Source: Paenibacillaceae bacterium
GTDB lineage: Bacteria; Bacillota; Bacilli; Paenibacillales; Paenibacillaceae
Direction of reading: 5' to 3'
Length of the DNA stretch: 64,000 bases
Assembly: GCA_004134985.1 (NCBI GenBank)
Contig: REGQ01000001.1
Location: 124,001 to 188,000 of the forward strand
Shown in pieces: positions 13,151-62,819 of this stretch. Position 1 is the stretch's first letter. The number at the start of each line of letters is the position of its first letter. A model generated the notes under the pieces. The model was not told the origin of the DNA, made no database searches, and saw only the letters and a list, made by a program, of their open reading frames with translations. The translations under genes were made by a program, and so were the position numbers.

Positions 13151-13189
13151 CAGATCGCATTTTCTTTTTCGGGTTTCTTCATTAAATAT

Positions 13190-13228
13190 TAAGAAGGAGC
13201 CACAGGGATGCTTCCGACTCATGGCTCC
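13190..13228 (-). terminator. Terminator of the phage lipoprotein gene
   Basis: GGAGCCA (13196-13202) pairs with TGGCTCC (13222-13228); T-rich sequence follows on the minus strand. It closely resembles the terminators at 14489-14519 and 57715-57752. Confidence 0.7.
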
Positions 13229-13234
13229 AATTCG

Positions 13235-13798: not shown

Positions 13799-13890
13799 TT
13801 ATACACCTCCAAATTTTACCTTAAATATTAACATCTTTAAGACAAGAGGTACAGGGATTTTCGACAAAAACTAACAATAGCCAACAAAAC

Positions 13891-24218: not shown

Positions 24219-24219
24219 C

Positions 24220-48043: not shown

Positions 48044-49087
48044 TTACTTCGCCTTTTCCTTCTGGGATGGCTGGAGCTGATCAAGGAGCTTTGTTAAAAG
48101 CGTTACAGTAGCTTGGGTCAGCTTGTCTTGCTCGGCTTTGTCGTTAATCTCGGCAATGGCTTTAACTACACCGTCGCCATTGGAAACGATTTGTTGTAGA
48201 TACACCTTGCCGCGAAGAAAAGACTCGTTGTTGCTCCGCTGGAGCTGCTGGGTTGCCTTGTCCAATTGAGCTTGCAAAGCGCTCTCGCGCTCTCTGACCT
48301 CTTCCTGCAGCTCCTGCACACGTTTCTGGACCATTTCGACGGCTGCCTTCTCTGCCTCAGCCTGCTGGGCTTTAAGTGCCTCCTGCAACTCGGCAACCTT
48401 TGTTTCCTGCGCCTGCTTGGCCTTTTCGACCTTTCTCAACTCAGCCCTAGCCTTAGAAGCTGCCTTGTCATCGCCGCCTGCCTTTGCCTTATCCAGCTCA
48501 GACTGCAGGTCCGTCAGTTGCTGATCCGTCTGGTGGCGAAGTTCTTGCGCAAGGTCATATCGGGCCTGCAGCTCTTTTTGCTCCATGGCTTGCTGAGCTG
48601 CCCAGGCATCAAACTGAGCTTTCTGATCAGCCTGTTGCTTCTGTTCTTCCGCCAGTTGCTTGGCCAGCTCTTGATTCTCCTTGACCGCTGCCGCCAGCTC
48701 CCTGCTGGACATTTCAGCAGCGTTATTCTCCTCGACAAACGTTTCTCTCTCTTCTGCCGGTAGGGAGAGAAGGGCAACTGCTTGGCTGTAGCTCAAATTA
48801 GCAAGCGCTTGGGAATTTTGATATTCAGAAGCCACTTTCATAAAGTTGTTGGCCGATGACTGACTATAATTGACATGCTCTTTTAACCACGTTCCCCACT
48901 CGCCATGTGAAACGAGTGCCTTTGCCTCAGTAAGCTTGTTACCGATCTCGATTGCACTCTGCAGCACGTACTGTCGGGCCTGAGAATCAATGAAGCGGAT
49001 CTCCGATGCAATTACATCTGGAGTGCGATTTGAAACGGTTGTCTCATATACTGGCACGATTGCAGCAGCTTTTTTTACTTTTGTCAT
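48044..49087 (-). CDS. DUF3102-type coiled-coil protein
   Basis: The 347-aa protein has an N-terminal domain with IASEIRFIDSQARQYVLQSA, then EIGNKLTEAKALVSHGEWGT and WLKEHVNYSQSSANNFMKVA (DUF3102), followed by over 150 residues of coiled coil and a helical end. Such proteins occur in Firmicute phages and plasmids; some resemble ParB-like DNA-binding factors, but the function is unknown. The stop of PcfJ overlaps its start (ATGA). Confidence 0.8.
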   Translation of the reverse strand: MTKVKKAAAIVPVYETTVSNRTPDVIASEIRFIDSQARQYVLQSAIEIGNKLTEAKALVSHGEWGTWLKEHVNYSQSSANNFMKVASEYQNSQALANLSYSQAVALLSLPAEERETFVEENNAAEMSSRELAAAVKENQELAKQLAEEQKQQADQKAQFDAWAAQQAMEQKELQARYDLAQELRHQTDQQLTDLQSELDKAKAGGDDKAASKARAELRKVEKAKQAQETKVAELQEALKAQQAEAEKAAVEMVQKRVQELQEEVRERESALQAQLDKATQQLQRSNNESFLRGKVYLQQIVSNGDGVVKAIAEINDKAEQDKLTQATVTLLTKLLDQLQPSQKEKAK

Positions 49088-50628
49088 ACAACGGCCTCCT
49101 GTCTAATGGTTTGGTTTTTTATTGCAGTAACGGATTTTGGCTTTTTCTTGATCTCAATGATTTTCATAAACATGTTCACCGCATCTTGGACTTGCTTTGT
49201 CATCGAGCAATTCTTTAATCCTCGACACTGTACAAACTTGTTACTTGTAACTTGGAGTGTGTAATAAGGCTGTTCTGGTGCTGCCTTCCTTCTCACCGCA
49301 AAAAGTTCTGTTTCCCCTTTCGAGAATCGTTTGGCATAACCGCCCACACAATGATTAAGCTTCTCCCCTTCCTGAAACAGTTCAGATATAGAGCTGATCG
49401 GACGAATAATAATTCTTGAATTTTCATAGCAACGAGGTTCTTCGTTTGCTAACCGTTCTTGCAACTGTTTCTCTAGCGCCTCACTTTTCTTGTACTTGAT
49501 GCGTCCCGTCATCCTTTGGTGGGCAGCATGAAGATCATTTGGGAACAAATAGCGATCCTCACTCAATCTCATTCCCAACTCCTTGCACTGTCCTAAGTAA
49601 TCACGCCAGTCCCGCATTGTATCTGCGATTTCATCCCAGTGATTCCTTTTAAACTGTTTTAGTAGGTAATTCCAGATTTCTTCCTTCGAAGCGTATTTCA
49701 TCACATTTTGAAAGGTTGTAGTAAAGCGTTCATGATCTATTTGGGATAATAGGAAGGCATCATAGGCGCTTATTTGCTTTCCGTTCTTCAACTTATTTTG
49801 AAAATAACTGAGTTGTTTTACCCCCCATTCCAGGCCAGTAGTCTGAATATCTCTAATAGCTCGTTTGTCGATTCTAAGAACTTTTTCAATCGTTTTTCCA
49901 CGCCAATTAATGATAGGTCCTGTCGGGTTCCCGTAAAGTCTCTCCCAAATGCATTTCTTAAATCCTAGCTTGGATAAATACTCGACACACGGAAACCTTG
50001 CAGCCAGATCAAAAAAATCTACCATATCAGAAACATATCCACGATTATCGTATTTGGTGAACTGATCCCAAGTGCTGTATTGAAACATAGTCCCTTTAAC
50101 GGCTTGTCGAATATTGGCATGTGAAACGAACTTTTTTCCGTACAGCCTGTCAAATGCTGAAAAAACACTCTTACGCTTAGTGAATCCGTCCCAGTGCTGA
50201 GTCTTTCCTGGTTCGAAAAGATATCTGTGAGAACAATAATGCCCGGTTTCTACGTTCTCATAACTGCCGCTATAGTCACGGGTTACATGAACAATCCTTG
50301 CCGTAACAGCTTTGCTATTGATAACCGACTTCTCATACCAAATCACAACAGCAGTATCTTGCATATACTTTCTACTCACTCCAGCCGCCCGCACTTGGCA
50401 ATTCGAACCGCAGTTTGGACACCTCACACTTTCTTTTTGCTTATGCTTTAACTTAATCTCCGAGCGGTGACGCTGATTGCAATGCGTACAATGAGCATAT
50501 TGCAAGCCAAGAACAGTCTTGAAGAATAGATAACGGCTGTCTTTGAACACCGTTTCATTTACAAACTTACAAAGAGATTTGCTTATCTTCTCAGGAAAAT
50601 GGGCAGAGAACTCTTTAAATTCGCTCAT
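49084..50628 (-). CDS. PcfJ-like protein
   Basis: The 514-aa protein has a zinc-ribbon-like N-terminal part (HCTHCNQRHR, RCPNCGSNC), a long helical region and the PcfJ signature near the C terminus (ISELFQEGEKLNHCVGGYAK, then RFSKGETELFAVRR and YTLQV). PcfJ comes from conjugative plasmid pCF10, where its job is unknown. Its usual neighbour, PcfK, is the next gene upstream here. Confidence 0.85.
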   Translation of the reverse strand: MSEFKEFSAHFPEKISKSLCKFVNETVFKDSRYLFFKTVLGLQYAHCTHCNQRHRSEIKLKHKQKESVRCPNCGSNCQVRAAGVSRKYMQDTAVVIWYEKSVINSKAVTARIVHVTRDYSGSYENVETGHYCSHRYLFEPGKTQHWDGFTKRKSVFSAFDRLYGKKFVSHANIRQAVKGTMFQYSTWDQFTKYDNRGYVSDMVDFFDLAARFPCVEYLSKLGFKKCIWERLYGNPTGPIINWRGKTIEKVLRIDKRAIRDIQTTGLEWGVKQLSYFQNKLKNGKQISAYDAFLLSQIDHERFTTTFQNVMKYASKEEIWNYLLKQFKRNHWDEIADTMRDWRDYLGQCKELGMRLSEDRYLFPNDLHAAHQRMTGRIKYKKSEALEKQLQERLANEEPRCYENSRIIIRPISSISELFQEGEKLNHCVGGYAKRFSKGETELFAVRRKAAPEQPYYTLQVTSNKFVQCRGLKNCSMTKQVQDAVNMFMKIIEIKKKPKSVTAIKNQTIRQEAVV

Positions 50629-50638
50629 ACTGGCCTCC

Positions 50639-50968
50639 TCATAACAGATCGTCTATATCCACGCTAAACCCGACAGCAACCGGTTCCGGCTCGGCCTTGG
50701 CCGTCTGAATGCCGTAATACTCCAGTACAATGGACTTCCCCTCGTCCGGTGTCACTACGGCCATGTTGCCTTGCTTCTTCTTTTCGACTGCTTTTCGCAT
50801 TGCAGCGAGGCTTCCCTGAATTGACTTTCCTTGGGCTACAAACAACGGAGCTTTGTCCGGGTTTGCGCGCACGTAGTTAATCAACTCAGCACCCAGCATA
50901 CGGACATATTCATCCTTTGGGCTGTCAGCCACTTCCTTCTGCAACTTCTGCAGGGCTTCTTGCAACAT
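50639..50968 (-). CDS. PcfK/AcrIIA9-like protein, candidate anti-CRISPR
   Basis: The 109-aa protein starts MLQEALQKLQKEVADSPKDE, and the conserved centre reads SIQGSLAAMRKAVEKKKQGN, then MAVVTPDEGKSIVLEYYGI. This layout (helical start, basic KKK-Q/G-x-AV stretch, D-E-x4-IVLxYxGI end) matches the PcfK-like family that includes the Cas9 inhibitor AcrIIA9. The tail EPEPVAVGFSVDIDDLL is acidic. ATG at 50968 fits the ribosome site better than 50974. Confidence 0.7.
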   Translation of the reverse strand: MLQEALQKLQKEVADSPKDEYVRMLGAELINYVRANPDKAPLFVAQGKSIQGSLAAMRKAVEKKKQGNMAVVTPDEGKSIVLEYYGIQTAKAEPEPVAVGFSVDIDDLL

Positions 50969-50988
50969 CCTCATTCCTCCTTATTATT

Positions 50989-51025
50989 GGGCCGCAGTCC
51001 GTAGGCGAACGGAACGGTGCGGCCC
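50989..51025. other. Branched GC-rich hairpin in an intergenic gap
   Basis: GGGCCGC (50989-50995) pairs with GCGGCCC (51019-51025), with an inner CCGT/ACGG stem. It lies between two early genes and has no T-run, so a protein site or mRNA-stabilising role is more likely than termination. Confidence 0.45.
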
Positions 51026-51051
51026 TAGCAACTACATATTGTGTAAAGTGA

Positions 51052-51759
51052 CTAGCCGACGATTACAACTTCACCTGCTTGCACTCGCTCAGCAAGTGCA
51101 TTATCCAAATAAGATTTGATATCTCTGATGGCAATAATCTTCCAAGCACCGCCGTCAGCTTCGAATAGGGCTGCAGATGGGCCGTCCTTCATACGGAATA
51201 CAAACGCACTCTCTGGCTGCTCGATTTCAACAAATGTCCGGAATGGCTTGAGCCATACTGGATTCGGCAGTTTTACAGCCTCGACTGTAGCGACGCCTGT
51301 TTTGGCCGTTACTTGCTGGCTCACACCATCGTCACCGAAAGTCGTTACATTCTCATCACGTACATTGCCAACGATCCGAAGGATGCTCTCTCTGATCTCT
51401 GTTGACACAAAACAGCTCTGTAACAAAATATTGAAACTTTCAATGTCGTAGTAGCCGCCAAATCGGATTTCTGGCAGAATGGCAGTTGCAACGACCAATT
51501 CAGAGCGGCTAAGGTCGCGATTGAATCCAGTCAAGACATTCACCTTTGTAGGGGACTCGACATGAATGATAACCGGCAGATGTTTATCAAAATCATTTTT
51601 CAGGTAATCGATAATTCCAGACAAGTTACGAACTTTAAGTGTGTCTGTCAGCGAAGCAGTCACCCTTGATAGTTGGCTGCTTGTATAGACTTGTTCACCA
51701 ATCTTCGTCGTTTGGATCTCAGCCAAACCGAGAATTTTTTCAATTGCTTCTTTAATCAA
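51052..51759 (-). CDS. Conserved phage protein, 235 aa
   Basis: TTG at 51759 follows GGGAGGG. The protein has LPVIIHVESPTKVNVLTGFN, then RFGGYYDIESFNILLQSCFV, FRTFVEIEQPESAFVFRMKD and ALFEADGGAWKIIAIRDIKS, a pattern I have seen in early proteins of Firmicute phages, but no function is known to me. It is possibly linked to phage DNA handling because of its place among early genes. Confidence 0.65.
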   Translation of the reverse strand: MIKEAIEKILGLAEIQTTKIGEQVYTSSQLSRVTASLTDTLKVRNLSGIIDYLKNDFDKHLPVIIHVESPTKVNVLTGFNRDLSRSELVVATAILPEIRFGGYYDIESFNILLQSCFVSTEIRESILRIVGNVRDENVTTFGDDGVSQQVTAKTGVATVEAVKLPNPVWLKPFRTFVEIEQPESAFVFRMKDGPSAALFEADGGAWKIIAIRDIKSYLDNALAERVQAGEVVIVG

Positions 51760-51781
51760 TGAAATTCCCTCCCAAAGTTAA

Positions 51782-52165
51782 TTAGCGGAACACGCCGTTT
51801 ACGACTTTTTTGTTGACGGGCGTCCCAACTCCGTCCGTTACATCACCATCGCTGTTATGCTGCAATTGGTTAGGGTCAGCGCCTGCAGGAGCAAATTCCT
51901 TAACCACTGCTTTACCCTCGCGGTCGTAGTCAAAGACGAATGCAGACGGCAATCCCTTTGCTGGAGCAAGTGAAGATTTTACTGATATATCTGCATTACC
52001 CATCTGCCTTCCTTCATTTGGCTTGATGGTAATTTCGATCACGAGCTTCCTGGTCGCCGTTGCGTTCGTATTCGGATCGAGCACGTTTTCAGCGATCTTC
52101 TTCATTTCACGCTCAATCCGCTCGCTTGCTCCGCCGCCAGCAAGGCTATCAATACTGATTGGCAT
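51782..52165 (-). CDS. Early phage protein, 127 aa (often labelled replication terminator protein)
   Basis: Reads MPISIDSLAGGGASERIERE, then KKIAENVLDPNTNATATRKL and VIEITIKPNEGRQMGNADIS. Proteins of this look are commonly labelled replication terminator protein in phage records; I see no evidence for that activity. ATG at 52165 has GGGAGG 8 bases upstream. Confidence 0.6.
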   Translation of the reverse strand: MPISIDSLAGGGASERIEREMKKIAENVLDPNTNATATRKLVIEITIKPNEGRQMGNADISVKSSLAPAKGLPSAFVFDYDREGKAVVKEFAPAGADPNQLQHNSDGDVTDGVGTPVNKKVVNGVFR

Positions 52166-52202
52166 AATGTTCACCTCCCTCCTATTGGGAATGAAGTGTT
52201 AA

Positions 52203-52418
52203 CTACTCGTTGCGAGCAATTGAAGCGTTGGCCCAGAACATGGCTTGTTCCAAGTTTGTGTGTGCGCTGGAGCGTTCACGGCTATGTGGGCAAAGTTCAT
52301 CAATTAGATATGCAAGTTCTTTTGCCTTGGTGCGCAACTGCTCATACTTCTCTGGCTGTCCTACCTTTGGCGCGTGATACTTGTAGTTGTTTTCCAACTG
52401 TGGGTTTTTCTCTGGCAT
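52203..52418 (-). CDS. Acb2/Tad1-like cyclic-nucleotide sponge, candidate anti-CBASS
   Basis: The 71-aa protein contains KYHAPKVGQPEKYEQLRTKA, then KELAYLIDELCPHSRERSSA and HTNLEQAMFWANASIARNE. The opening YHAP-x3-Q-x3-Y-x2-LR, the CP-x-SRE turn and the WANAxIARNE end match the helical hairpin of the Acb2/Tad1 family, whose hexamers bind cyclic dinucleotide and related signals of CBASS and Thoeris defence. Residues that bind the ligand were not checked against a structure. GAGGGGAGGG precedes ATG 52418. Confidence 0.75.
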   Translation of the reverse strand: MPEKNPQLENNYKYHAPKVGQPEKYEQLRTKAKELAYLIDELCPHSRERSSAHTNLEQAMFWANASIARNE

Positions 52419-52516
52419 CTTATTCCCTCCCCTCGTATGTACTGATGCATCAGCTGCATCTCAGGGCACCAAAAAGTTTGATGTCCTGAGACATTGCCGA
52501 TCTTGGGGGCCGCGCA

Positions 52517-52714
52517 CTAACGCGCAGCCCTTGACTTGCTTCGTTTTACCGGGCGTTCTACAATTTCTGAAATGTCTTTCTCCATTATCGGGACACTCTT
52601 TCCCTCCTCCGGCCTAAACCGGAAGAAGGTACGAGCGATCCCCCAAACCTCTACGATCTCCCCCGTCATGCCGGACTTGGTGCGGACGATATCGCCCTTG
52701 AGGACTATCCGCAA
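52517..52714 (-). CDS. Small SH3/KOW-like protein, 65 aa
   Basis: TTG at 52714 has AAGGAG upstream. The protein begins MRIVLKGDIVRTKSGMTGEI, a KOW-like beta pattern, and ends in a basic tail (RPVKRSKSRAAR). It may bind nucleic acid. It overlaps the next gene by 10 bases. Confidence 0.55.
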   Translation of the reverse strand: MRIVLKGDIVRTKSGMTGEIVEVWGIARTFFRFRPEEGKSVPIMEKDISEIVERPVKRSKSRAAR

Positions 52715-52863
52715 ACGGGAATGCTCCTTGTTGTGTTGGTCAGACGATGGACAATGTGCAGCCGCTGGTCGTCTGTCTTATACACCAACCAGTTGGCCGG
52801 ATTAAGGTTGATCGCCTTAATCGCCAGCTTCTGGCGGCGCGTTGGGCGCTTTCCGTTCTTCAC
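52705..52863 (-). CDS. DUF6906-like small protein, 52 aa
   Basis: GTG at 52863 follows GGAGAGG. The peptide reads MKNGKRPTRRQKLAIKAINL, then NPANWLVYKTDDQRLHIVHR, the pattern of the small basic DUF6906 proteins of Firmicute phages (GKRPTRxQK, LNPxNWLV). Function unknown. It overlaps the genes on both sides by 4 to 10 bases. Confidence 0.7.
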   Translation of the reverse strand: MKNGKRPTRRQKLAIKAINLNPANWLVYKTDDQRLHIVHRLTNTTRSIPVCG

Positions 52864-53447
52864 AACTTCCTCTCCTTTCGATCACAAGAGCAATTATGAT
52901 TGTCCTTGTACTCGTCTATGATCTCTTTCTTAAATTCATTTTTTTCCGCATCCTCATACAAACTATCATGTTTCCAAGTCACAAAATCAAAAACAGTGCC
53001 TGTCGTATGTGCATGCATATTATGATGTAAATGAAGCCTTCCATCTGATTTCCAGAGGTTAAAACGAACCAGCCCTAAAACAATTGTAAAACCATTACCG
53101 CTTTCCTTAATTTCGCTATTAATTTTCGTTCTGGCATGCCCCGTGAGATCGGAAAAGAATTCGACTGCCATTTTTTTATTAAGCTTCTTTGCTTGAGCTA
53201 TTTGTTCATTTTTAACACATTCATTAATGCGGTCACCTTCAATAATGCATTCCAACGCTTCATCCATCTTCAAGTAAGAGATGTTGCGGTCAGATCGGTA
53301 AGATTTATATTTGAATGTTTCGTAGGGTTTTAAACCTTGGTACGCGAATACGCCATCATGATTCCCTGTCAAAGCATAAATAGTCCATACCCTACCCTTG
53401 TAATAAATCGCTTTATCGTACAGATTAACTTCCTGTCCCTGATTCAT
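52860..53447 (-). CDS. Early phage protein, 195 aa
   Basis: Unknown. Starts MNQGQEVNLYDKAIYYKGRV, has FAYQGLKPYETFKYKSYRSD and a His-rich stretch GRLHLHHNMHAHTTGTVF, and ends NHNCSCDRKERKL. GAGAGGAG precedes ATG 53447. The His and Cys content could bind metal. Confidence 0.6.
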   Translation of the reverse strand: MNQGQEVNLYDKAIYYKGRVWTIYALTGNHDGVFAYQGLKPYETFKYKSYRSDRNISYLKMDEALECIIEGDRINECVKNEQIAQAKKLNKKMAVEFFSDLTGHARTKINSEIKESGNGFTIVLGLVRFNLWKSDGRLHLHHNMHAHTTGTVFDFVTWKHDSLYEDAEKNEFKKEIIDEYKDNHNCSCDRKERKL

Positions 53448-53575
53448 TCACATTTCTCCTCTCTATTACCGGAATTGCGAGTCATCAGCCTGTCCAGCCG
53501 CCGATGCATCTCGGCAAGCTTGGCTGCAAGCAAAACCTGCTCCGCAATTAATTGCGCCTTTCTGCTGCTCAGCAC
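53444..53575 (-). CDS. Small helical protein, 43 aa
   Basis: GTG at 53575 overlaps the stop of the upstream gene. The peptide is one amphipathic helix (LSSRKAQLIAEQVLLAAKLA, EMHRRLDRLMTRNSGN). The ribosome site is weak, but the overlap at both ends suggests a coupled gene. Confidence 0.45.
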   Translation of the reverse strand: MLSSRKAQLIAEQVLLAAKLAEMHRRLDRLMTRNSGNREEKCE

Positions 53576-53829
53576 TTGGCATCTGCCTCCTTACGTGATA
53601 AGATGGAGGCAATCAATTTCAAAAGCTTTTGTTTCAACGATGTCCGGCCTGCCCGCCGGGCATTTTTGCGTTCCCACTTTTCAAATGCGATCAACTGCAG
53701 GAGTTGCCCCTCAACGTGAACCTTTTCGCCCGGCAGGATCTTATCCGGGTATTTCCGAAGCAATCGCAGGTTGTGCGAAGCCGCCTGCGCGCATAATCGC
53801 GCGTCCCTTACCATTTGCTCTCTATCCAC
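53569..53829 (-). CDS. Small helical phage protein, 86 aa
   Basis: GTG at 53829 follows GGAGG. The protein starts MDREQMVRDARLCAQAASHN and continues LLRKYPDKILPGEKVHVEGQ, then a basic helical end. Not recognised. Confidence 0.55.
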   Translation of the reverse strand: MDREQMVRDARLCAQAASHNLRLLRKYPDKILPGEKVHVEGQLLQLIAFEKWERKNARRAGRTSLKQKLLKLIASILSRKEADAKC

Positions 53830-53833
53830 TTAT

Positions 53834-54082
53834 TCAGCCTCCTATGAATGGCAATATATTCGTAATGATGGAAACCCCGTCCATGCCGTAAAGCAATGCG
53901 ACGATAGCTTCTCGGGCGTTTGTTACCTCGCCCCATTTAACAGCCGTCTGGAGATCAAGCGTTTTTTTGTTTGACTCCAACCGACTTATGCAGCTTTGCG
54001 TCCGGTGCAGCAGCTCTGCCATTTTTTCCTGTGTAAGTCCTGCTTTTTCCCGGCACGCTTCCAAAATCGCGCCGTATTTCAA
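53834..54082 (-). CDS. XRE-family regulator with hydrophobic tail, 82 aa
   Basis: TTG at 54082 follows GGGGGTGAG. The HTH is ILEACREKAGLTQEKMAELL, then HRTQSCISRLESNKKTLDLQ. The C-terminal 25 residues are hydrophobic (AIVALLYGMDGVSIITNILP), unusual for a small repressor; it could be membrane-associated or form an oligomer. Confidence 0.75.
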   Translation of the reverse strand: MKYGAILEACREKAGLTQEKMAELLHRTQSCISRLESNKKTLDLQTAVKWGEVTNAREAIVALLYGMDGVSIITNILPFIGG

Positions 54083-54174
54083 TTTCTCACCCCCTTTTAT
54101 GCAGTATCGGAATAGTGACGGAGAAGCCGACGCTGTATTATTGAGTTATACCGTTCCCTGGTGCCGCCGATCAT

Positions 54175-54513
54175 TTAGACGGCGGCTCTTTTTTTGCTAA
54201 AAATTTGATCGAATCTTTTATCCAAAAACTCAGCCATCTTTGCAGCATGAAAGCTCCAAGTTTGTCCTTGTACCTTTGGATAATAGACAAAGCCACCTTG
54301 ATCGACATCCAGAATCTTTTTGAAATTTTGTGGGTAAAGAATATTTTCTTTAATCCAAGCTTGTTTCTTATTTATCCGTTTCTCGAGATCACTCATCGTC
54401 CAGTAACTTCCGAGAAGTTCATTCTTTTTCAGTTCGGCCAATTCGACCTTACTAATCAGAATAGTGTCTGGTGGGATGGGGATAGTAATCTGAACATTGA
54501 GTTTTTGTTCCAT
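54175..54513 (-). CDS. DUF771-like phage regulator
   Basis: The 112-aa protein reads MEQKLNVQITIPIPPDTILI, then SYWTMSDLEKRINKKQAWIK and YPQNFKKILDVDQGGFVYYP, the DUF771 pattern common beside phage immunity genes. It has an HTH-like core (MSDLEKRINKKQAWIKENIL). ATG at 54513 has GAGGGTGATGAG upstream. Its transcription passes an operator at 54567-54581. Confidence 0.8.
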   Translation of the reverse strand: MEQKLNVQITIPIPPDTILISKVELAELKKNELLGSYWTMSDLEKRINKKQAWIKENILYPQNFKKILDVDQGGFVYYPKVQGQTWSFHAAKMAEFLDKRFDQIFSKKRAAV

Positions 54514-54547
54514 CTCATCACCCTCATATTTTGTTTTTCTAAAAAGT

Positions 54548-54781
54548 CTAACTAACAATCACTGAACTAAGCGTATCGCTTACTTTATGAGAAAAAGAAA
54601 AGCTTACTTCTAATCCTAAAGAATCTGCGATCGCAGAAATGTCTTCAAGGTATACTCTTCTTCTACCTTTGACAATATCGGAGTACCAAGGCACTGATCT
54701 CCCGCAGGATGTTGCTATATGAGTTTTAGTAATGCCTTTACGTTGTCTAATTTCTTCAATTTTAAGAATGACTGCATTCAA
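54548..54781 (-). CDS. Cro-like XRE repressor
   Basis: First gene of the early lytic operon. The 77-aa protein has KIEEIRQRKGITKTHIATSC, then GRSVPWYSDIVKGRRRVYLE. TTG at 54781 is chosen because GGAGG lies 8 bases upstream; an earlier TTG at 54796 would contain that ribosome site inside the gene. It is divergent from the CI-like gene. Confidence 0.82.
   Translation of the reverse strand: MNAVILKIEEIRQRKGITKTHIATSCGRSVPWYSDIVKGRRRVYLEDISAIADSLGLEVSFSFSHKVSDTLSSVIVS
54567..54581. promoter_or_regulatory. Operator inside the end of the Cro-like gene
   Basis: TAAGCGTATCGCTTA, identical to the central operator at 54835-54849, lies in the last codons of the Cro-like gene, before the DUF771-like gene. 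It may block transcription into the early genes or act by DNA looping. Confidence 0.7.
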
Positions 54782-54798
54782 TTCTTTCACCTCCAATA

Positions 54799-54911
54799 TA
54801 AGCGAAACGCTTACTTTATGAATTAAATATACACTAAGCGTATCGCTTAGTCAATAGAATATTTAGCTAATCGCTTACTTTATTAATCATAACGCTTAAT
54901 TTTGATATACT
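54799..54911. promoter_or_regulatory. Immunity control region: divergent promoters and operators
   Basis: Minus-strand promoter: TTGACT (54849-54854) and TATATT (54826-54831), 17 bp apart, with the operator TAAGCGTATCGCTTA (54835-54849) filling the spacer. TAAGCGAAACGCTTA (54799-54813) follows it. Degenerate copies lie near 54863-54877 and 54882-54898. Plus-strand promoter for the repressor: TATACT (54906-54911) with a weak -35 at 54883-54888. Confidence 0.85.
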
Positions 54912-54939
54912 AAACAATTAGAAAGGAGGAAGGTGTTTA

Positions 54940-55317
54940 ATGAGCAGTTTGGGAGTTAGACTAAAAAAAGCCAGAGAAAATAAACGCCTTACTCAAATGA
55001 AAGTCGCAAAAATATTAGGCATTTCAAACGGGACATTATCTGGATATGAAAGGAACTACCGTGATCCGGATACCACAACACTTGCTAATTTGGCTGATTT
55101 ATACAATGTGAGTGTTGACTGGTTGACCACGGGGGGGACAGAAAAAAGAGACCATTCCAGTGAAGAAATGATCACATCTATAATCGAGCATTCTGGAGAA
55201 CCTGGTAGTTCAGAGAGGGAGTTATTTACAGTTCAATTCCTTAAAGAATTTCGTAAGTTGCCTGATGATGTTCAAAATAACTTATATGAACTAATCAGGA
55301 ATATGCCCAAAAAGTAG
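54940..55317 (+). CDS. CI-like repressor of lysogeny
   Basis: The 125-aa protein has an XRE HTH at the start (LKKARENKRLTQMKVAKILG, ISNGTLSGYERNYRDPDTTT, LANLADLYNVSVDWLTTGG) and a helical C-terminal part without a LexA-type self-cleavage site. So induction would not follow the usual RecA cleavage; another signal or an antirepressor is needed. GAAAGGAGGAAGG precedes ATG. Confidence 0.88.
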   Translation: MSSLGVRLKKARENKRLTQMKVAKILGISNGTLSGYERNYRDPDTTTLANLADLYNVSVDWLTTGGTEKRDHSSEEMITSIIEHSGEPGSSERELFTVQFLKEFRKLPDDVQNNLYELIRNMPKK

Positions 55318-55416
55318 TGAAACAAGTTCATCAGACGAAGATAAAATTTCTACTAATTGCTCAGTTGATGATTCTTTGATTATTTTTGTCAGTTCAGTCT
55401 CTGTAATTTTATTCAA
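55291..55416 (-). CDS. Possible 41-aa peptide opposite the repressor end
   Basis: TTG at 55416 with AGGCGGG upstream opens a frame MNKITETELTKIIKESSTEQ, then LVEILSSSDELVSLLFGHIP. It is helical and acidic and overlaps the repressor's 3' end in antisense by 27 bases. Weak start and short length keep confidence low. Confidence 0.3.
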   Translation of the reverse strand: MNKITETELTKIIKESSTEQLVEILSSSDELVSLLFGHIPD

Positions 55417-55538
55417 TGTGAAACACCCGCCTTTTATGTATTTTATGAGGAAGTGTAGGTTATAAGCGGTAACAAGGGATGAAAAGTAAAGTCATGATTG
55501 ACAATATTAACAAATTGATTTATTTTTTTAGTATAACG

Positions 55539-55552
55539 CGAATGCATGTTCG
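55539..55552 (+). promoter_or_regulatory. LexA-type box upstream of the 55606 HTH gene
   Basis: CGAATGCATGTTCG matches 13 of 14 positions of the Bacillus LexA consensus. It also sits in a GAATGC/GCATTC inverted repeat (55540-55557). A TATAAC box lies just before it at 55532-55537. Confidence 0.6.
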
Positions 55553-55605
55553 CATTCAAGCTTTGCGATGATATTGTTCAAAAATAAAATAAGTTAGGGG
55601 TTTAT

Positions 55606-55818
55606 ATGGCTCTCCCTCGAATCGGGAGCAGCCGCCTATTAGAGCACTTGCATCGGATCGGTATGAAACAAAAGGATTTCGCCAAACAATTAAAAGTATC
55701 CAATTCCTTCGTTTCAAGGGTTATCAGTGGCGAACGCCATTTTTCCCTCGAACGAGCAAAGCAAGCTGCTACAATCCTTCGATGCAAGACTGATGATTTG
55801 CATCATTGGATCGAATAA
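55606..55818 (+). CDS. XRE-family regulator, 70 aa
   Basis: Reads SSRLLEHLHRIGMKQKDFAK, then QLKVSNSFVSRVISGERHFS and LERAKQAATILRCKTDDLHH: one complete HTH domain. GGGG lies before ATG 55606, weak as a ribosome site. With a LexA-type box upstream, it may be part of the induction route, for example as an antirepressor. Confidence 0.82.
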   Translation: MALPRIGSSRLLEHLHRIGMKQKDFAKQLKVSNSFVSRVISGERHFSLERAKQAATILRCKTDDLHHWIE

Positions 55819-55821
55819 CAG

Positions 55822-55866
55822 GCTGGCTGTGTTGACGCTTTGGCGTCTCCCGGCTCGATTTTTTGC
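55822..55866 (+). terminator. Terminator after the 55606 HTH gene
   Basis: GACGC/GCGTC (55834-55847) within an outer GCTGG/CCGGC stem, followed by TTTTTT at 55859-55864. Confidence 0.7.
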
Positions 55867-55955
55867 CCTATGAGTCAAATAAATTAAAATAATCTAATTA
55901 ATCAATATAAATTGTAACATCTTTTGTCATATTTTGCTGTCGAATTTTGACGAGT

Positions 55956-55990
55956 AATTCAACCAAATATGTGACGTATTTGGTTGAATT
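55956..55990. terminator. Perfect 14-bp inverted repeat after the LytTR gene
   Basis: AATTCAACCAAATA (55956-55969) and its complement (55977-55990) enclose a 7-base loop, directly after the LytTR stop codon. The stem is A+T-rich. It may end transcription or bind a regulator. Confidence 0.5.
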
Positions 55991-56266
55991 CTATTCATCC
56001 TGTTGAATTTTGTCGAATATATCTTTCAGTTTACTTACATTCCTTCTTGGTATTTGAAAAGTGTTGTCGCTATCCTTGAATATAAGAACATCTTTTTCCA
56101 ACTTTGATATTTGACTAATATTTACTAAGTTGCTTTGATCCGCTTTGACGAAGCCCAATGGGCCGAGAATTATTTCTAATTGATTCATAAGACTGCCTCT
56201 TAATTCACCTTCGGATGTTTGAATGACTATTTTTCTGTTTTCGATTTTAATCAATTGAATTTCCAT
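55991..56266 (-). CDS. LytTR-type DNA-binding protein, 91 aa
   Basis: Only the LytTR domain is present: IENRKIVIQTSEGELRGSLM, FVKADQSNLVNISQISKLEK and NTFQIPRRNVSKLKDIFDKI. LytTR domains bind direct repeats spaced by about one turn. Without a receiver domain it may be controlled by amount only. It lies divergent to the integrase gene, with 52 bp between the starts. ATG at 56266 follows GGGTGAT. Confidence 0.82.
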   Translation of the reverse strand: MEIQLIKIENRKIVIQTSEGELRGSLMNQLEIILGPLGFVKADQSNLVNISQISKLEKDVLIFKDSDNTFQIPRRNVSKLKDIFDKIQQDE

Positions 56267-56318
56267 ATATATCACCCTTTTTTTAATTCATTATGTCCCA
56301 ACGGAAGGATGAAACATC

Positions 56319-57443
56319 ATGGCAAGTTTTCAAAAGCGAGGTAAAACATGGCAGTACTGTATTAGCCGTATGGTTAATGGTAAGTATGACCCAATTCGTC
56401 AGGGCGGATTTTTAAGAAAAAAAGAGGCTGAAGTTGCCGCTGCGGCAGTAGAAGCAAAATTAAGAAGACAAATAAATCCGGAACTTATTAATGCGAAGGT
56501 TCCATTTGACGAGTATTTTGAAGATTGGTTACTTATTTATAAGCCTAATATTGGGAAGAACACAAAGGCCCGTTACAATAACACGCTCGAGTCGATCAAA
56601 GAGGAGTTTGAAGGAGTTTATATACAAGACATAACAAAACGAACTTATCAATCGTTTTTGAACAAATACGGAGAAAACAGAACGAAAGCAACGGTGCGGA
56701 AACTAAACAGTCATATACGTTCATGCGTCAAAGATGCTATTGATGAGGGACTTATACAAGTAGATTTTACACGGAGGGTTACTATAACAGGTAAAGTACC
56801 CTCAAAGCGTCCAGAAGAAAAACATCTTGATTACGATGAGAGTGAGATGCTGCTGGAAGGGTTGGTCGATGACCTCAATACGTTATCGCATTACTTGATC
56901 GTCCTTGGTCTTACATCAGGAATGAGATTTGCAGAAATGGTGGGACTAACGAGGGAAGACTTTAATTTTGAAAATAATGAAATTGACATAAACAAAACAT
57001 GGGGTTATACGAATAAAATGCACGAAGGTTTTGGTAATACAAAAAATGATCAATCAAAAAGGATAATAACAATGGATGAGTTTACCATGGGCCTATTTAA
57101 AAAAATGTTTGAATCTTTCCCGGAAAATCCCATTGGTCTAGTTTTTTACAGTCCATCATCCAAGTATAAAGTAATATCCAATAACGCTGTCAATAAAGCA
57201 TTATCTCTCGCATTAAAAAAATTAGACATAGATCCCATCACTGTACACGGCCTGCGGCATACTCACGCCAGCATCTTGCTTTATAAAAAGGTATCAATTT
57301 ACTATGTGAGCGAGCGTTTGGGGCATGCAAGTATTGATACCACCTTGGAGCACTATGCTCACATCGTTAAAGAGCTAAGGGAAGAAGATGAGGAAAGTAC
57401 AATCAGCACAATGGAATCTATGTTCAATAAAAATGCTTCTTAA
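56319..57443 (+). CDS. int: Integrase (tyrosine recombinase)
   Basis: The 374-aa protein has an arm-binding N terminus (FQKRGKTWQYCISRMVNGKY, QGGFLRKKEAEVAAAAVEAK), a SAM-like core-binding domain and the catalytic domain with Arg in LTSGMRFAEMVGL, HGLRHTHAS (HxxR), His in LGHASID and Tyr in TLEHYAHIV. It stands 77 bp before attR and should drive integration into tRNA-Arg. GGAAGGATG precedes the start. Confidence 0.96.
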   Translation: MASFQKRGKTWQYCISRMVNGKYDPIRQGGFLRKKEAEVAAAAVEAKLRRQINPELINAKVPFDEYFEDWLLIYKPNIGKNTKARYNNTLESIKEEFEGVYIQDITKRTYQSFLNKYGENRTKATVRKLNSHIRSCVKDAIDEGLIQVDFTRRVTITGKVPSKRPEEKHLDYDESEMLLEGLVDDLNTLSHYLIVLGLTSGMRFAEMVGLTREDFNFENNEIDINKTWGYTNKMHEGFGNTKNDQSKRIITMDEFTMGLFKKMFESFPENPIGLVFYSPSSKYKVISNNAVNKALSLALKKLDIDPITVHGLRHTHASILLYKKVSIYYVSERLGHASIDTTLEHYAHIVKELREEDEESTISTMESMFNKNAS

Positions 57444-57448
57444 TTTTT

Positions 57449-57468
57449 TTCTACACAAATTCTACACA
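57449..57468 (+). repeat. Integrase arm-type sites, right arm
   Basis: TTCTACACA at 57449-57457 and 57460-57468, with the same 11-bp step as the left arm at 13131-13150. Confidence 0.6.
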
Positions 57469-57519
57469 TGGTTTCAAAAAAACCAGTAATACCAACGGTT
57501 CAAGGCATAGTATTTGCGT

Positions 57520-57531
57520 CCTCCTGGGACG
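57520..57531 (+). repeat. attR core
   Basis: CCTCCTGGGACG, identical to the 3' end of tRNA-Arg at 12974-12985. Sequence on both sides differs from the left copy. Confidence 0.85.
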
Positions 57532-57566
57532 CCATTTAGTTATTAAAGATATATACGATGAATATT

Positions 57567-57613
57567 AATCTCTGAAACTCCTTATGCATTAAGGATTTTG
57601 GAGATTTTTTTGT
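57567..57613 (+). terminator. Terminator just outside attR
   Basis: AATCTC pairs with GAGATT around an inner CCTT/AAGG stem, followed by TTTTTTTG. Before this prophage inserted, it would have ended tRNA-Arg transcription. Confidence 0.75.
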
Positions 57614-57661
57614 TCTTCTCTTGTGACAGAAATATGTACGAAAATGATTGATGCCAGATTT

Positions 57662-57681
57662 GTCTACACCTTCTTTACACG
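57662..57681 (+). repeat. Degenerate arm-type sites outside attR
   Basis: GTCTACACC (57662-57670) and CTTTACACG (57673-57681) have the same 11-bp step as the phage arm sites, and GCGATC follows as GATCGC follows the left pair. They lie 142 bp from the attR core start; the phage pair lies 157 bp from attL. Confidence 0.5.
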
Positions 57682-57714
57682 CGATCTTACTTGAAGCGCC
57701 TCCATTAAAAATAA

Positions 57715-57752
57715 TAAAAAGGAGCCTCAGGAATGATTTCTCCTATGCTCCT
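57715..57752 (-). terminator. Terminator of the host-side lipoprotein gene
   Basis: AGGAGC (57720-57725) pairs with GCTCCT (57747-57752), with an inner AGGA/TCCT stem, followed on the minus strand by TTTTTATTATTTTT. Confidence 0.85.
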
Positions 57753-57764
57753 CACTCTAATCCG

Positions 57765-58325
57765 CTAGTTAAATTGAACAAGCATTTTACGATCAGCAAG
57801 CCAGACTCGTGCGATCTTGCCATCCTCAACCCAAACAGTTAAAACAGAAGTATTCACTAATGATTCAGGCGTCTTGTCTTCTAGCGAGACAACACCTAAA
57901 AATTTGTTATCTTTATTGTCATAGTAATATTCCATACTGTTTTCAGCGAGATCAATTGCATACTTACTTCCATGCAATGATTTAACATCATCTTTCGTTT
58001 GGCCAACTTTTACTCCCCGGGCTGTTTTATAAATGCCTTCCGATTCTTCGTTGAGCATTACACCTCTAGCTATGTCATCTCTATACATTAGATTAACCCC
58101 AACATCGTACTCGGTATATATATGTAAATTTCCCTCCCTACCGTTGCCTAGAATTTTTTCTACCTCCGATCGACTCATTCCGTAGCAAACCTTCGCTTTT
58201 TCATTATCAACTTTCACAATGCACATGTCTTTATCCGAAAATGTGTCTGGCTTGAAACTTGAAGCGCCGCCGCAACCAATCAATACAGTGAATAATGCCG
58301 CGGCCAAGATCCCCTTTAATTTCAT
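57765..58325 (-). CDS. Putative lipoprotein, paralogue of the phage-borne copy
   Basis: The 186-aa protein begins MKLKGILAAALFTVLIGC, with lipobox LIGC, and follows the 13235-13798 protein along its full length with few changes (GMSRSEVEKILG, GVKVGQTKDDVKSLHG, NSMEYYYDNKDNKFLGVVSL). It lies 234 bp outside attR; the phage copy lies 250 bp inside attL. Its upstream region is interrupted by a 131-bp palindromic insert 10 bp before the start, which may change its expression. Function is unknown. Confidence 0.85.
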   Translation of the reverse strand: MKLKGILAAALFTVLIGCGGASSFKPDTFSDKDMCIVKVDNEKAKVCYGMSRSEVEKILGNGREGNLHIYTEYDVGVNLMYRDDIARGVMLNEESEGIYKTARGVKVGQTKDDVKSLHGSKYAIDLAENSMEYYYDNKDNKFLGVVSLEDKTPESLVNTSVLTVWVEDGKIARVWLADRKMLVQFN

Positions 58326-58335
58326 TCGTACACCT

Positions 58336-58482
58336 CCAAATTTGGCTCTACCTAAAAATCAGTGCTTGACGAGACTCGGGTATGCTGCTGCGGGTTCGCA
58401 GGGTGTTTCCAACATCTCTGCAACCCTTCGCTGCCCTTCTCGCAGTAGGCAAGCACTGATTTTGGTTTTGAACGCCAAATTT
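58336..58482. mobile_element. 131-bp palindromic MITE-like insert with 8-bp target duplication
   Basis: CCAAATTT occurs at 58336-58343 and 58475-58482. Between them lie 131 bp with inverted repeats AAAATCAGTGCTTG (58355-58368) and CAAGCACTGATTTT (58450-58463) and an inner hairpin-forming part. The phage copy of this region (13805-13830) has one CCAAATTT and continues uninterrupted, so it shows the empty site. No transposase is encoded. Confidence 0.8.
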
Positions 58483-58727
58483 CACCTTAAATATTATCAT
58501 CCTTAAGGCAAGGTGGCATGACTCCCACGCCCCTCGTTCGCCCTGCTTGTGCAACAATAGCTTAGGACACTTGTGCTAAATCAGCTGCTGCTGCCCCTGC
58601 AGCTTGGGTGCCCTAGACGTATGATAAATACTTTCCTGACCTAACTATCCTACGCTGCACGGACTTTGCCAAACTGCCTGCGGAGCCCTGCCTGGCCCAA
58701 CTGTTTGCTAGCCGGCCAACCCGTCTG

Positions 58728-59615
58728 CTAATTATCCCACAGCTTGTACAAAGCCTGTGTCCCTTCGTCTTCGTGCCCCAACTCCGCCAACTGCTGGTAC
58801 AGCGAGTGCGCCTGTGCCAGGCCCGGCGTGTCCATGCCCATTTCGCGCGCGGCTTCCAGGGCAATGCCCATATCCTTAATGAAATGCTTCACATAAAAAC
58901 CCGGTTCAAAATTGCCGTCGATGATCCGCGGGCCCAGGTTGCTCAGCGACCAGCTGCCGGCAGCGCCTGTCTCAATGCTGGCCAGGACGGTCTTCGGGTT
59001 CAGCCCCGCCTTCTTGGCATAGGCGATCGATTCACATACCCCAATCATATTCGAGGCGATGACAATCTGGTTGCACATTTTCGTATGCTGTCCGGCTCCC
59101 GGTTCGCCTTGTCTTACAATATTGCTTCCCATCAGCTTCAACAGCGGCAGCACATTCTCAAACACCTGCTCGTCCGCACCGACCATAATCGACAATGCGG
59201 CATTGCGCGCGCCGATATCTCCGCCTGATACGGGGGCATCCAAAACATGCAGCCCCTTAGTGGCGGCAGCTTCATAAATTCGTTTGGCCAGCAGCGGACT
59301 GGAGGTGGTCATATCAATTAAATAGGCACCCTCTTTGGCATGACGGATTAGACCGTTCTCACCATTGTACAGCTCATCCACATCCTGAGGAAACCCTACC
59401 ATTGTAATGATAACATCGCTGGCAGCGGCAAGCTTGGCCGGCGTATCATGCCATATAGCCCCCTGCTCCAGCAGCTGCTTTGCCTTGGCGGCTGTACGGG
59501 TATATACATGCAGCTCGTAACCGGCCTTGGCGATATGCCCGGCCATACTGTTGCCCATAACCCCTAATCCGATAAATCCTACTGTCGTTGTTCCTGGCTG
59601 CAATTGCAAACTCAT
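58728..59615 (-). CDS. 3-hydroxyisobutyrate dehydrogenase-family oxidoreductase
   Basis: The 295-aa protein has the Rossmann motif VGFIGLGVMGNSMAGHIAKA, then DVIITMVGFPQDVDELYNGE, LIDMTTSSPLLAKRI, DAPVSGGDIGARNAALSIMV and the catalytic Lys in GAGQHTKMCNQIV. The family oxidises beta-hydroxy acids such as hydroxyisobutyrate, tartronate semialdehyde or glyoxylate-type substrates; the exact substrate cannot be told. Confidence 0.92.
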   Translation of the reverse strand: MSLQLQPGTTTVGFIGLGVMGNSMAGHIAKAGYELHVYTRTAAKAKQLLEQGAIWHDTPAKLAAASDVIITMVGFPQDVDELYNGENGLIRHAKEGAYLIDMTTSSPLLAKRIYEAAATKGLHVLDAPVSGGDIGARNAALSIMVGADEQVFENVLPLLKLMGSNIVRQGEPGAGQHTKMCNQIVIASNMIGVCESIAYAKKAGLNPKTVLASIETGAAGSWSLSNLGPRIIDGNFEPGFYVKHFIKDMGIALEAAREMGMDTPGLAQAHSLYQQLAELGHEDEGTQALYKLWDN

Positions 59616-59800
59616 TTTCTAATTCCTCCTTTACCCATAGGGATATATATAAATCTGCCATGTTTTACCGTGATTCGTCAATCTTTTTATCGGCATTACC
59701 CAGGAAATAATGGCATTTCCTATTGTTTTCCAATGTCATTAGGCGATGAAAGTCGTGTATTTCATTCCACATAAGGACTTCGGCTATATCGACTAATTTG

Positions 59801-60616
59801 TCAGCCCTGTTCCATCTCCCGCCGATATTCCTCTGGCGCTTTGCCAACAAATTTTTTAAAGTCCTTAATGAAATGCGCCTGATCATAGTAACCAAGGTTC
59901 AGCGCCAGTTGAAGCCAGTCAACTCCCCCTTCGCGCTCCATCTGCTCAGCGGCTTCATGAAGCCGGTATCGCCCGATCACCCATTTGGGACTGACACCGA
60001 CGTAGCTGTTGAACAGGCGCTGTATTGTGCGCTTGTTCAACCCTGTATGCTCACTAATGTCATCGACCCTGGTAATGTCTGGTTTGGACGCAATCGCCTT
60101 CACAATACAACCCACCCTGTCCACATTGCGATCCTGCAGCGGCAGACGGGTGCTCAGAAACCGTTCGAAAATCGCTACCATTGCCCGATGATCCGGCGCG
60201 GTCAAGATATCATCTTCAAGCTGGCTCTCTTGGCCGGCTATATCCGGGAACACTTCTCCCAGCCTGATCATCCTGTCGCTCAGCCCGGATACGGGCTTCT
60301 TCCAGAAGGGATAAAATCCGCCTACCTTGAATTTCACACCGAATACGTTTCCCTGTCCTGCAAGTAGATGGGATGATGTTCGTGATGATACGCCAAATAT
60401 TCCTGTCGCCTGGCGGTCAAAAACAAGATTAACATTCGGATGAGAAAGCACGGTCTGGCAATGCTGCTCCCCATCCTGCAAATCCCAGGTGATGATCCAA
60501 TAATGCTGAACAAAATGCTGATGCGCCTGTATCGGCTCCCATCTGGTCAACACAAATTTTTCAGATGCCCGTTTGGCACTCAAAATCCCTTTTCTGCTTT
60601 CCTTGGCAAGCGTCAT
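59801..60616 (-). CDS. AraC-family transcriptional regulator
   Basis: The 271-aa protein has an N-terminal sensing part (DUF6597-like: FVQHYWIITWDLQDGEQHCQ, LSHPNVNLVFDR, GVKFKVGGFYPFWKKPVS) and two HTH motifs at the end (DDISEHTGLNKRTIQRLFNS, LNLGYYDQAHFIKDFKKFVG with PEEYRREM). It is divergent from the SRPBCC gene and may control it. Confidence 0.92.
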   Translation of the reverse strand: MTLAKESRKGILSAKRASEKFVLTRWEPIQAHQHFVQHYWIITWDLQDGEQHCQTVLSHPNVNLVFDRQATGIFGVSSRTSSHLLAGQGNVFGVKFKVGGFYPFWKKPVSGLSDRMIRLGEVFPDIAGQESQLEDDILTAPDHRAMVAIFERFLSTRLPLQDRNVDRVGCIVKAIASKPDITRVDDISEHTGLNKRTIQRLFNSYVGVSPKWVIGRYRLHEAAEQMEREGGVDWLQLALNLGYYDQAHFIKDFKKFVGKAPEEYRREMEQG

Positions 60617-60772
60617 CGCCGCTCCCCCTTCTTTCCAGCCTCATTCCGTTTTCCCCTGCAATTTCTCAACAATGTCGCGTTTTTACAATACATCCTAGCT
60701 AGTCTGTTCTAACATAAGAGTAGCAGTTGACCTGCAGCTAGGCAACCGCCAGTCAAACATTTCAGGAGGAAT

Positions 60773-61225
60773 ATGATGGATTTGAAATATGTTTTCTTTA
60801 TCGCTGCAGCCCCAGAGAAAGTATGGAATATTCTTGTCTCACCTGAAGGGACTTCACGGACTTTATTCGGTTCTGTCATCCGCTCTTCATTCAAACCAGG
60901 CGAGGATCTTGCCTATGTGGGACCAGGCAACGAAGGCGATGAAACCGTTCATGTCTATGGAAAATTACTGGAATTTATTCCACTTGAACGATTCAGCTAC
61001 ACCGAACACCCTGGACCTTCCTACTCACCAAATCACGAAGCGCTTGAATCACGGATTACCTTTACACTGGAGTCCGTGGGCGAATGTACCAAGTTAACGC
61101 TTGTTAATGACAAGTGGTCATCAAACCACCCGTCGCATAGTAAAACACAGGAAGTGTGGCCGGTCGTTATGAGCAATATCAAGACGCTTGCCGAAACCGG
61201 GCAAACCTTAGATCTCGGCTGGTAA
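60773..61225 (+). CDS. SRPBCC (AHSA1-like) protein
   Basis: The 150-aa protein reads DLKYVFFIAAAPEKVWNILV, then FKPGEDLAYVGPGNEGDETV and ERFSYTEHPGPSYSPNHEAL, and ends in LAETGQTLDLGW: the helix-grip fold that binds hydrophobic ligands. ATG at 60773 or 60776 follows AGGAGGA. It faces away from the AraC gene. Confidence 0.85.
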   Translation: MMDLKYVFFIAAAPEKVWNILVSPEGTSRTLFGSVIRSSFKPGEDLAYVGPGNEGDETVHVYGKLLEFIPLERFSYTEHPGPSYSPNHEALESRITFTLESVGECTKLTLVNDKWSSNHPSHSKTQEVWPVVMSNIKTLAETGQTLDLGW

Positions 61226-61341
61226 TGAGACGTTTCAAGTCTAGCCTCCATCGGTTATTACTATAGTACCTGCAATTGTTTGCTTTACGAACTAAGGCAA
61301 ATACGGAAGGGCTATAAAAGGTCGAATGGAGGTTGCTTCTT

Positions 61342-62250
61342 ATGAAATCTGACAAACGGCGGTTCGACGTTAAAATATTCCTTCAGCAGATGCAGTGCCG
61401 GATCAGAGACAATGAGGTGCCCGCACTGAGTGCGCAATTGACCTATTATTTGATTTTGTCCTTTTTCCCGTTTCTCATATTTCTGATTGCTGCAATCGGC
61501 TACCTTGAATTGTCTGGAGACGAATTTATGAAGGGAATCACCACGCTGCTTCCTGTGGAATCGGGAGGAATTGTAACGACCATCCTTGATGAGGTAACAA
61601 CGAGCAGCAGCAATACGCTTCTGTCCGCCGGGATGCTGGCGACGTTATGGGCCGCTTCCAACGGAATCAATGCGGTCATCAAAGGTTTAAACAAAGCGTA
61701 TGACGAAGAGGAAACAAGACCATTCTGGAAGGTTCGTGGAATCGCCCTTCTTGCTACGCTTGTGCTAGTCGTTATTATTTTACTCTGTATGGGTTTGCTT
61801 ATCTTCGGCCGGCTGATCGGCGAGTCATTGTTCCGCTTGCTCGATTATCCTGGCGGCTTTGCTGCAGTCTGGGGCATCGGCCAGTACATTATCCCTCTTG
61901 TAATCATGACATTTGTATTCATGATGCTCTACCGCATCGGACCGAATCGCAGCATCACGTTTCGGGAGGCCATGCCAGGGGCAATTTTTGCCACTGCAGG
62001 ATGGATTATCGCTTCGCTGCTCTTTTCCTACTATGTCAGTCAGTTTGGAAACTACACCAAAACCTACGGCAGCCTTGGCGGAGTAATCGTATTGCTAATC
62101 TGGCTATATATCAGTTCCATCATTTTGCTGCTGGGCGGAGAAATTAATGCGGCGCTCGCCTTCGAACGAGAGGGACGACAGCGTACAGCAGCGAAATCGT
62201 TCAGTCTGGGCTTTCCCTATTTTCAGCGCAAAAACAATCCCCGCGCATAA
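61342..62250 (+). CDS. YihY/BrkB-family membrane protein
   Basis: The 302-aa protein has six membrane segments and the family signature near the N terminus (LSAQLTYYLILSFFPFLIFL), then LWAASNGINAVIKGLNKAYD and NYTKTYGSLGGVIVLLIWLY at the end. Its function is unknown; it was once mislabelled ribonuclease BN. ATG at 61342 follows GGAGG at 9 bases and is preferred to an upstream TTG. Confidence 0.93.
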   Translation: MKSDKRRFDVKIFLQQMQCRIRDNEVPALSAQLTYYLILSFFPFLIFLIAAIGYLELSGDEFMKGITTLLPVESGGIVTTILDEVTTSSSNTLLSAGMLATLWAASNGINAVIKGLNKAYDEEETRPFWKVRGIALLATLVLVVIILLCMGLLIFGRLIGESLFRLLDYPGGFAAVWGIGQYIIPLVIMTFVFMMLYRIGPNRSITFREAMPGAIFATAGWIIASLLFSYYVSQFGNYTKTYGSLGGVIVLLIWLYISSIILLLGGEINAALAFEREGRQRTAAKSFSLGFPYFQRKNNPRA

Positions 62251-62256
62251 TAACAG

Positions 62257-62298
62257 CAAATGGCGTGTCAAATTGGTTATCAATTTGCACGCCATTTG
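62257..62298. terminator. Bidirectional hairpin between convergent genes
   Basis: CAAATGGCGTG (62257 on) pairs with CACGCCATTTG with an inner CAAATTG/CAATTTG stem. It lies between the YihY gene and the convergent gene ending at 62338. No clear T-run follows, so termination strength is uncertain. Confidence 0.6.
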
Positions 62299-62337
62299 GC
62301 CGTTTCATTACAATTGGCTTACTGGTCCGGTTTGCTC

Positions 62338-62703: not shown

Positions 62704-62819
62704 TTCACCGACCTCCTAAACCGATTTTGACCACTGACTATAGCTTCCCCAGCAGGACAGACATTTTATGCCCCTCATAAGCATATATCTCTTAAACCCA
62801 GAGATAGGAGGATGAGAGC

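Follow-up and report, generated by a model that had tools for sequence, protein, structure and literature searches.

A putative Acb2-type nucleotide sponge encoded among the early genes of a Paenibacillus-type prophage

The 71-aa hairpin protein and its described relatives

Phage proteins of the Acb2/Tad1 family soak up bacterial alarm nucleotides. Within this family, the Y8A mutation reportedly disrupts the binding of cyclic dinucleotides by the T4 protein (PMC12657218), and Tad1 is described as carrying an N-terminal beta-sheet domain (PMC12043709). A further family, built on the RyR domain, reportedly degrades or binds the signals of Thoeris; its founding phage member, RyDEP, cleaves 2'/3'cADPR, and H75, W78, H100 and D117 are given as ligand residues (PMC13232231).

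In the window, by which we mean the whole stretch of 64,000 nucleotides analysed, a candidate cyclic-nucleotide sponge of 71 aa is encoded on the minus strand (52203..52418), with an ATG start codon preceded by the Shine-Dalgarno-like GGGGAGGG. The initial annotation had picked out three motifs in this frame, YHAP-x3-Q, CP-x-SRE and WANASIARNE, and all of them are present, as YHAPKVGQ at residues 14-21, CPHSRE at 43-48 and WANASIARNE at 62-71. It had also proposed membership of the Acb2/Tad1 family and called for a profile search, which bears the proposal out: the protein matches the Pfam model for the Acb2/Tad1 hairpin domain, PF24729, at a score of 78.4 bits and an E-value of 4.6e-22, well above the curated gathering score of 27 bits, and the match spans residues 13-69 and all 58 model positions (1-58). 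This is its sole Pfam match at E <= 0.01, and in PHROGs it matches phrog_1454 (E 8.7e-29). Both matches lie far beyond chance and, judged by its sequence, the protein is a member of the Acb2/Tad1 hairpin family, which is already known. Searches of PADLOC and NCBIfam with the protein gave no match, and the whole 7.71 Mb genome holds one PF24729 match, the gene described here.

To compare the protein with Acb2, we used the single PF24729 matches of the T4 and PaP2 records, namely Vs.4 (88 aa, 71.4 bits) and the PaP2 gene at 24096-24377 (66.1 bits), which are taken here as the Acb2 proteins treated in PMC12657218 and PMC11722364; Vs.4 carries Y8 and F82, as numbered in the former. The window protein resembles both in matching PF24729 along the whole model and in consisting of a short N-terminal segment and a helical hairpin. 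In profile comparisons with hhalign, the profile of the branch to which the window protein belongs (see below) matched the PaP2 clade with a probability of 75% (E 3.1e-6), and the T4 clade with a probability of just 10.5% (E 7.4e-4). Specifically, three MAFFT modes agreed in aligning window Y14 with PaP2 Y11 and T4 Y8, window R29 with PaP2 K26 and T4 K23, and window R47 with PaP2 R67, so that a tyrosine and a basic residue occupy the dinucleotide-pocket positions in all three proteins. We take PaP2 K26 to be a ligand contact and PaP2 R67 to be a trinucleotide contact. At the latter position the window protein shares the arginine of PaP2, whereas T4 Acb2 has an aspartate and the arginine is not conserved across the T4 clade. 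The column of the base-stacking F82 of T4 holds an alanine both in the window protein (A68) and in PaP2 (A88).

Two features set the window protein apart from both Acb2 proteins. The insertion that these carry between the hairpin helices is missing, and their C-terminal tail R-[AS]-[VI]-[AF]-x-P is absent, its place being taken by WANASIARNE in the window protein and by W-A-N-A-x-[IV]-A-R-N in its branch. Owing to the tail mismatch we file the protein as a separate PF24729 branch and do not call it an orthologue of either Acb2 protein, and, as the tail differs from both clades, the ligand preference of this branch is not readable from T4 or PaP2. The solved sequence closest to the branch profile is 'Acb2 homolog 43' (9ptq; E 2.5e-7), where 'Acb2' is the depositor's name. 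It shares the F-x2-H start and the P-x-GREKS turn but is without WANA, and in a single-sequence search its E-value is just 0.088.

The likeness to Tad1 is confined to the C-terminal hairpin, where the Tad1 chains (7uav, 8kbg and others) show the pattern SREN-x2-A-x-T-x2-E-x3-MW-x-N; the branch profile matched them weakly (E 0.02 or worse). The ligand residues of Tad1 are presumably F82, N92, R109 and R113, and their columns fall on I39, R49, S66 and N70 of the window protein, none of the four being kept in what is a by-eye, gap-free comparison with assumed numbering and spacing, made through a relative's protein (L074) that we read as Tad1-like and that scores below the PF24729 cut-off. In addition, the N-terminal beta domain is missing: of the 71 residues of the protein, the hairpin match already takes in the 13th, and the protein shows the Acb2-type architecture of a short N-terminal segment plus hairpin, with no further domain. 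A Tad1-type sponge was therefore lowered as a candidate. Of the initial label 'Acb2/Tad1-like', the Acb2 half stands, and the Tad1 half is not supported by either domain architecture or aligned residues.

The W-A-N branch and its labels in phage records

The branch was defined on an alignment of 109 distinct proteins from viral contigs and genomes, one of which (L079) is a truncated copy. In this set W62-A63-N64 is invariant (109/109), and H15 occurs in 108/109, the remaining protein having a gap. H15, P44, R47, E48, A65 and A68 are each found in 106-108 of the 109, and these residues, together with the near-C-terminal W-A-N, are the hallmarks of the branch as the alignment defines it. The pocket-aligned positions are 94-97% conserved (Y14 103/109, R29 104/109, R47 106/109).

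The branch has many members. At least 583 stretches encoding them were found in the viral scan, and a tblastn search (E <= 1e-3) found one in 319 of 50,697 phage records, mostly of phages of Mycobacterium (186), Paenibacillus (59) and Gordonia (43). Among the phage records listed, 16 of 60 label the relative 'phosphomannomutase'. These are Paenibacillus phage records (H5, H26-H34, H42, H45, H46, H51, H52 and H60), and an Acb2-type protein of Brevibacillus phage Jenst (H68) bears the same label. The phrog_1454/'phosphomannomutase' proteins of Paenibacillus and Brevibacillus phages belong to the same branch and are about 62-79% identical to the window protein. The three such proteins that we examined are 67, 71 and 68 aa long, a size into which a mutase domain cannot fit; the label looks like a propagated misannotation. 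Replacing 'hypothetical protein' or 'phosphomannomutase' would give a testable counter-defence function to this family of small genes, which is present in the Mycobacterium, Paenibacillus and Gordonia phage records counted above.

Some relatives carry additional sequence. A small, N-terminal, Cys-rich extension, zinc-ribbon-like by eye, precedes the hairpin in L011, L197, L198, L212, L216 and L253, and in L071 a phrog_419-type phage domain is followed by the hairpin in one fusion, with a PGDYG match below cut-off.

Position of the gene in the prophage

The hairpin gene lies in a leftward operon on the minus strand. Downstream of it are a phrog_997 gene (51782..52174), for which the PHROGs label is replication terminator, and an early-module gene of 235 aa matching phrog_1029 (51052..51759). 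Upstream, the other flank of the slot is formed by a gene for a 65-aa protein with no Pfam or PHROG match (52517..52714), followed by one for a small DUF6906 protein (52705..52863; PF21847, 78 bits). The operon's first gene encodes an HTH regulator (54548..54796) with PHROG transcription-regulator matches, which we call Cro-like from its position, and a repressor-like HTH gene diverges from it on the plus strand (54940..55317; phrog_8, E 8.6e-21). A promoter-like TTGACT-17-TATATT on the minus strand (54826..54854) overlaps a palindrome (54833-54851); it is a consensus match only, and the nine promoter-like sites found in the region against 8.3 expected are at chance level. From this gene order only, that is, the divergent repressor-like gene, the Cro-like gene and then the operon, expression of the hairpin gene is most likely early upon prophage induction.

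The prophage integrase is encoded on the plus strand (56319..57443; phrog_1, E 3.6e-75). Direct copies flank the prophage at 13184-13816 and 57709-58343, being 84% identical over 641 bp; the duplicated gene appears lipoprotein-like by eye, and a tRNA-Arg (12911-12986) lies near one flanking copy. A megablast search of positions 49000-64000 of the window against phage records gave no match. An IMG/VR contig of 45 kb is 100% identical at both the hairpin and the phrog_1029 genes, and probably represents the same prophage. To judge by the relatives of the phage, the host is a Bacillota bacterium that is probably Paenibacillus-like.

We then compared the slot across related modules. The phrog_1029 gene has relatives in 470 viral stretches, and among the best 80 of these 470 phrog_997 is present in 63, while within their 1.5 kb flanks the hairpin is found only as the window's own copy. 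The two genes flanking the slot occur together in 12 other loci, some of them near-duplicates: in 9 the gap between them is 8-62 bp (aligned ends), in 2 the gene order is different, and in L328 the slot measures 552 bp and holds DUF6906 and a phrog_2293 gene. Conversely, when homologues of 17 neighbour genes of the window were sought around the hairpin in 43 loci, again with some near-duplicates, none recurred. The module is thus conserved without the hairpin, and the hairpin is found without the module, which is accessory, counter-defence-like behaviour, and on this comparison of loci the gene is best described as an accessory cassette slotted into a conserved early module. The same two facts led us to reject a fixed replication-module gene as an explanation.

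RyR partners, possible targets and alternative readings

In a few viral records the hairpin is joined to, or lies next to, an RyR domain. One viral contig (L024/L274) encodes the RyR domain followed by the hairpin in a single frame (L024:3632-4189), and another encodes the fusion in the opposite order (L289:1036-1836). Separate but adjoining RyR and hairpin genes were found in L036, L300 and L295; in L036, from Bacillus canaveralius, the RyR frame has its first ATG 15 bp after the hairpin stop, and the hairpin adjoining RyR in L295 is of the PaP2 type. At the level of whole records, PF24729 is present in 7 of the 48 records with RyR and in 2 of the 48 controls, drawn from the 79 phrog_1029 relatives (p = 0.08). 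In these seven records the two domains are fused in two, adjacent in two, about 1.7 kb apart in one and about 5.5-6 kb apart in two. Within loci of about 3.3-3.7 kb, the hairpin occurs in 4 of 48 RyR loci and in none of the 79 phrog_1029 loci, the window's own copy excluded (p = 0.019), a comparison that was picked after the data had been seen and in which the four omit a weak match (L298) that the record-level scan did not confirm.

Seen from the hairpin side, the pairing is scarcer. Of 147 hairpin loci, some of which share contigs, two (L024 and L036) have an RyR domain joined to the hairpin or close to it. A set of 50 viral records with the hairpin gave no PF02026 match (0/50); these records represent part of the viral hairpin loci and leave out the known fusion L024 (1/51 if it is included); the control genomes were also without a match. 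Among the 295 host-family genomes sampled, three have RyR (PF02026) over the cut-off, and one genome (G213) carries hairpin and RyR genes about 6 kb apart, at two places. The H-W-H-D spacing of the RyR ligand residues is kept by the RyR frame in all seven records that also carry a hairpin, in L298 and in L036; since it is kept in 47 of the 48 RyR frames, it marks the RyR domain and not the pairing with the hairpin.

We read this pairing as real but rare or occasional, and as apparently joining two signal-disarming modules. It supports a probable signal-related role for the hairpin, leaving the ligand unnamed. RyR fusion alone does not fix function, as the domain is also fused to PF13876 (L302) and to phrog_2293 (L285). 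Our literature searches found nothing joining the RyR domain with Acb2, a wider search being needed before the fusions can be called unpublished, and nothing on Acb2 together with Paenibacillus and phage; the main text of PMC13232231 contains no occurrence of 'acb', 'tad1' or 'fused'. If functional, the fusions would be naturally occurring inhibitors of two targets, and they would give a clue to the signals handled by the W-A-N branch.

Turning to possible targets, SMODS CD-NTase genes score over the cut-off in 33, STALD (ThsA-type) genes in 18 and PF24729 in 19 of the 295 sampled host-family genomes. In the genome of the window and six genus relatives SMODS and STALD were found in 0 of 7, the STALD control genomes also giving no match, although the model does match in the 18 genomes above; given none in its own genome, the gene would have its targets in other hosts or in other systems. 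Two host-family genomes carry broken hairpin copies, with an in-frame TGA in L072 and a truncation in L079, perhaps, by analogy with Panoptes-type defence, a trace of selection against sponges.

In the light of these comparisons, we consider it likely that the product is a phage-encoded nucleotide sponge of the Acb2 type and that its gene belongs, as an accessory gene or moron, to the early operon of a Paenibacillus-type prophage. The protein would be made early, on induction or infection, would assemble as a hexamer and would bind cyclic di- and/or trinucleotides of the CBASS type, leaving them uncut; with the signal sequestered, the effectors would not be triggered. That the protein works as Tad1 does, sequestering the TIR-made cADPR isomers of Thoeris, is in our estimate unlikely: the pattern SRE-x3-A-x-T-x2-E-x4-W-x-N shared by the window protein and the Tad1 chains and the STALD genes in 18/295 family genomes would suit it, but none of the four presumed Tad1 ligand residues is kept in the by-eye alignment through L074. 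The N-terminal beta-sheet domain of Tad1 (PMC12043709) is absent as well. Fusion of the hairpin to RyR in two viral contigs could be taken in favour of a Thoeris signal, RyDEP being a 2'/3'cADPR-cleaving enzyme (PMC13232231); however, the RyR partner would already deal with cADPR, so a different signal is more plausible for the hairpin fused to it.

It is less probable still that the protein has kept the hairpin fold of the family but no longer sequesters nucleotides and serves another early role, for instance in DNA metabolism or host takeover. The adjoining gene labelled replication terminator would fit such a role, as would the finding that no W-A-N branch member is named as tested in the portions of the literature covered, yet the neighbours are not conserved with the hairpin gene and the pocket-aligned Y14, R29 and R47 are strongly conserved. 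As to a decaying, non-functional copy, the broken L072 and L079 show that decay occurs in the host family, but the copy in the window is unbroken, has a start codon and a Shine-Dalgarno-like site, and keeps all the invariant and near-invariant residues (A1) bar F12, which is a tyrosine here; we regard decay as highly improbable. We also raise, with considerable doubt, a broader proposal, in which the W-A-N branch would be a distinct and widespread sponge type, mainly of phages with Gram-positive or actinobacterial hosts, with a ligand preference set by WANAxIAR, and some two-headed RyR fusions would hit both cADPR (Thoeris) and cyclic-oligonucleotide (CBASS) signals.

Finally, two further small domains turned up beside those discussed. 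A Phage_gp49_66 (PF13876) domain precedes RyR in one fusion (L302:1171-1836). A small phrog_2293 protein sits in the hairpin slot of L328 (835-1044) and is encoded close by in L329, L330 and L339, while L285 (1168-1833) has it fused to RyR; phrog_2293 is a candidate for a further counter-defence family.
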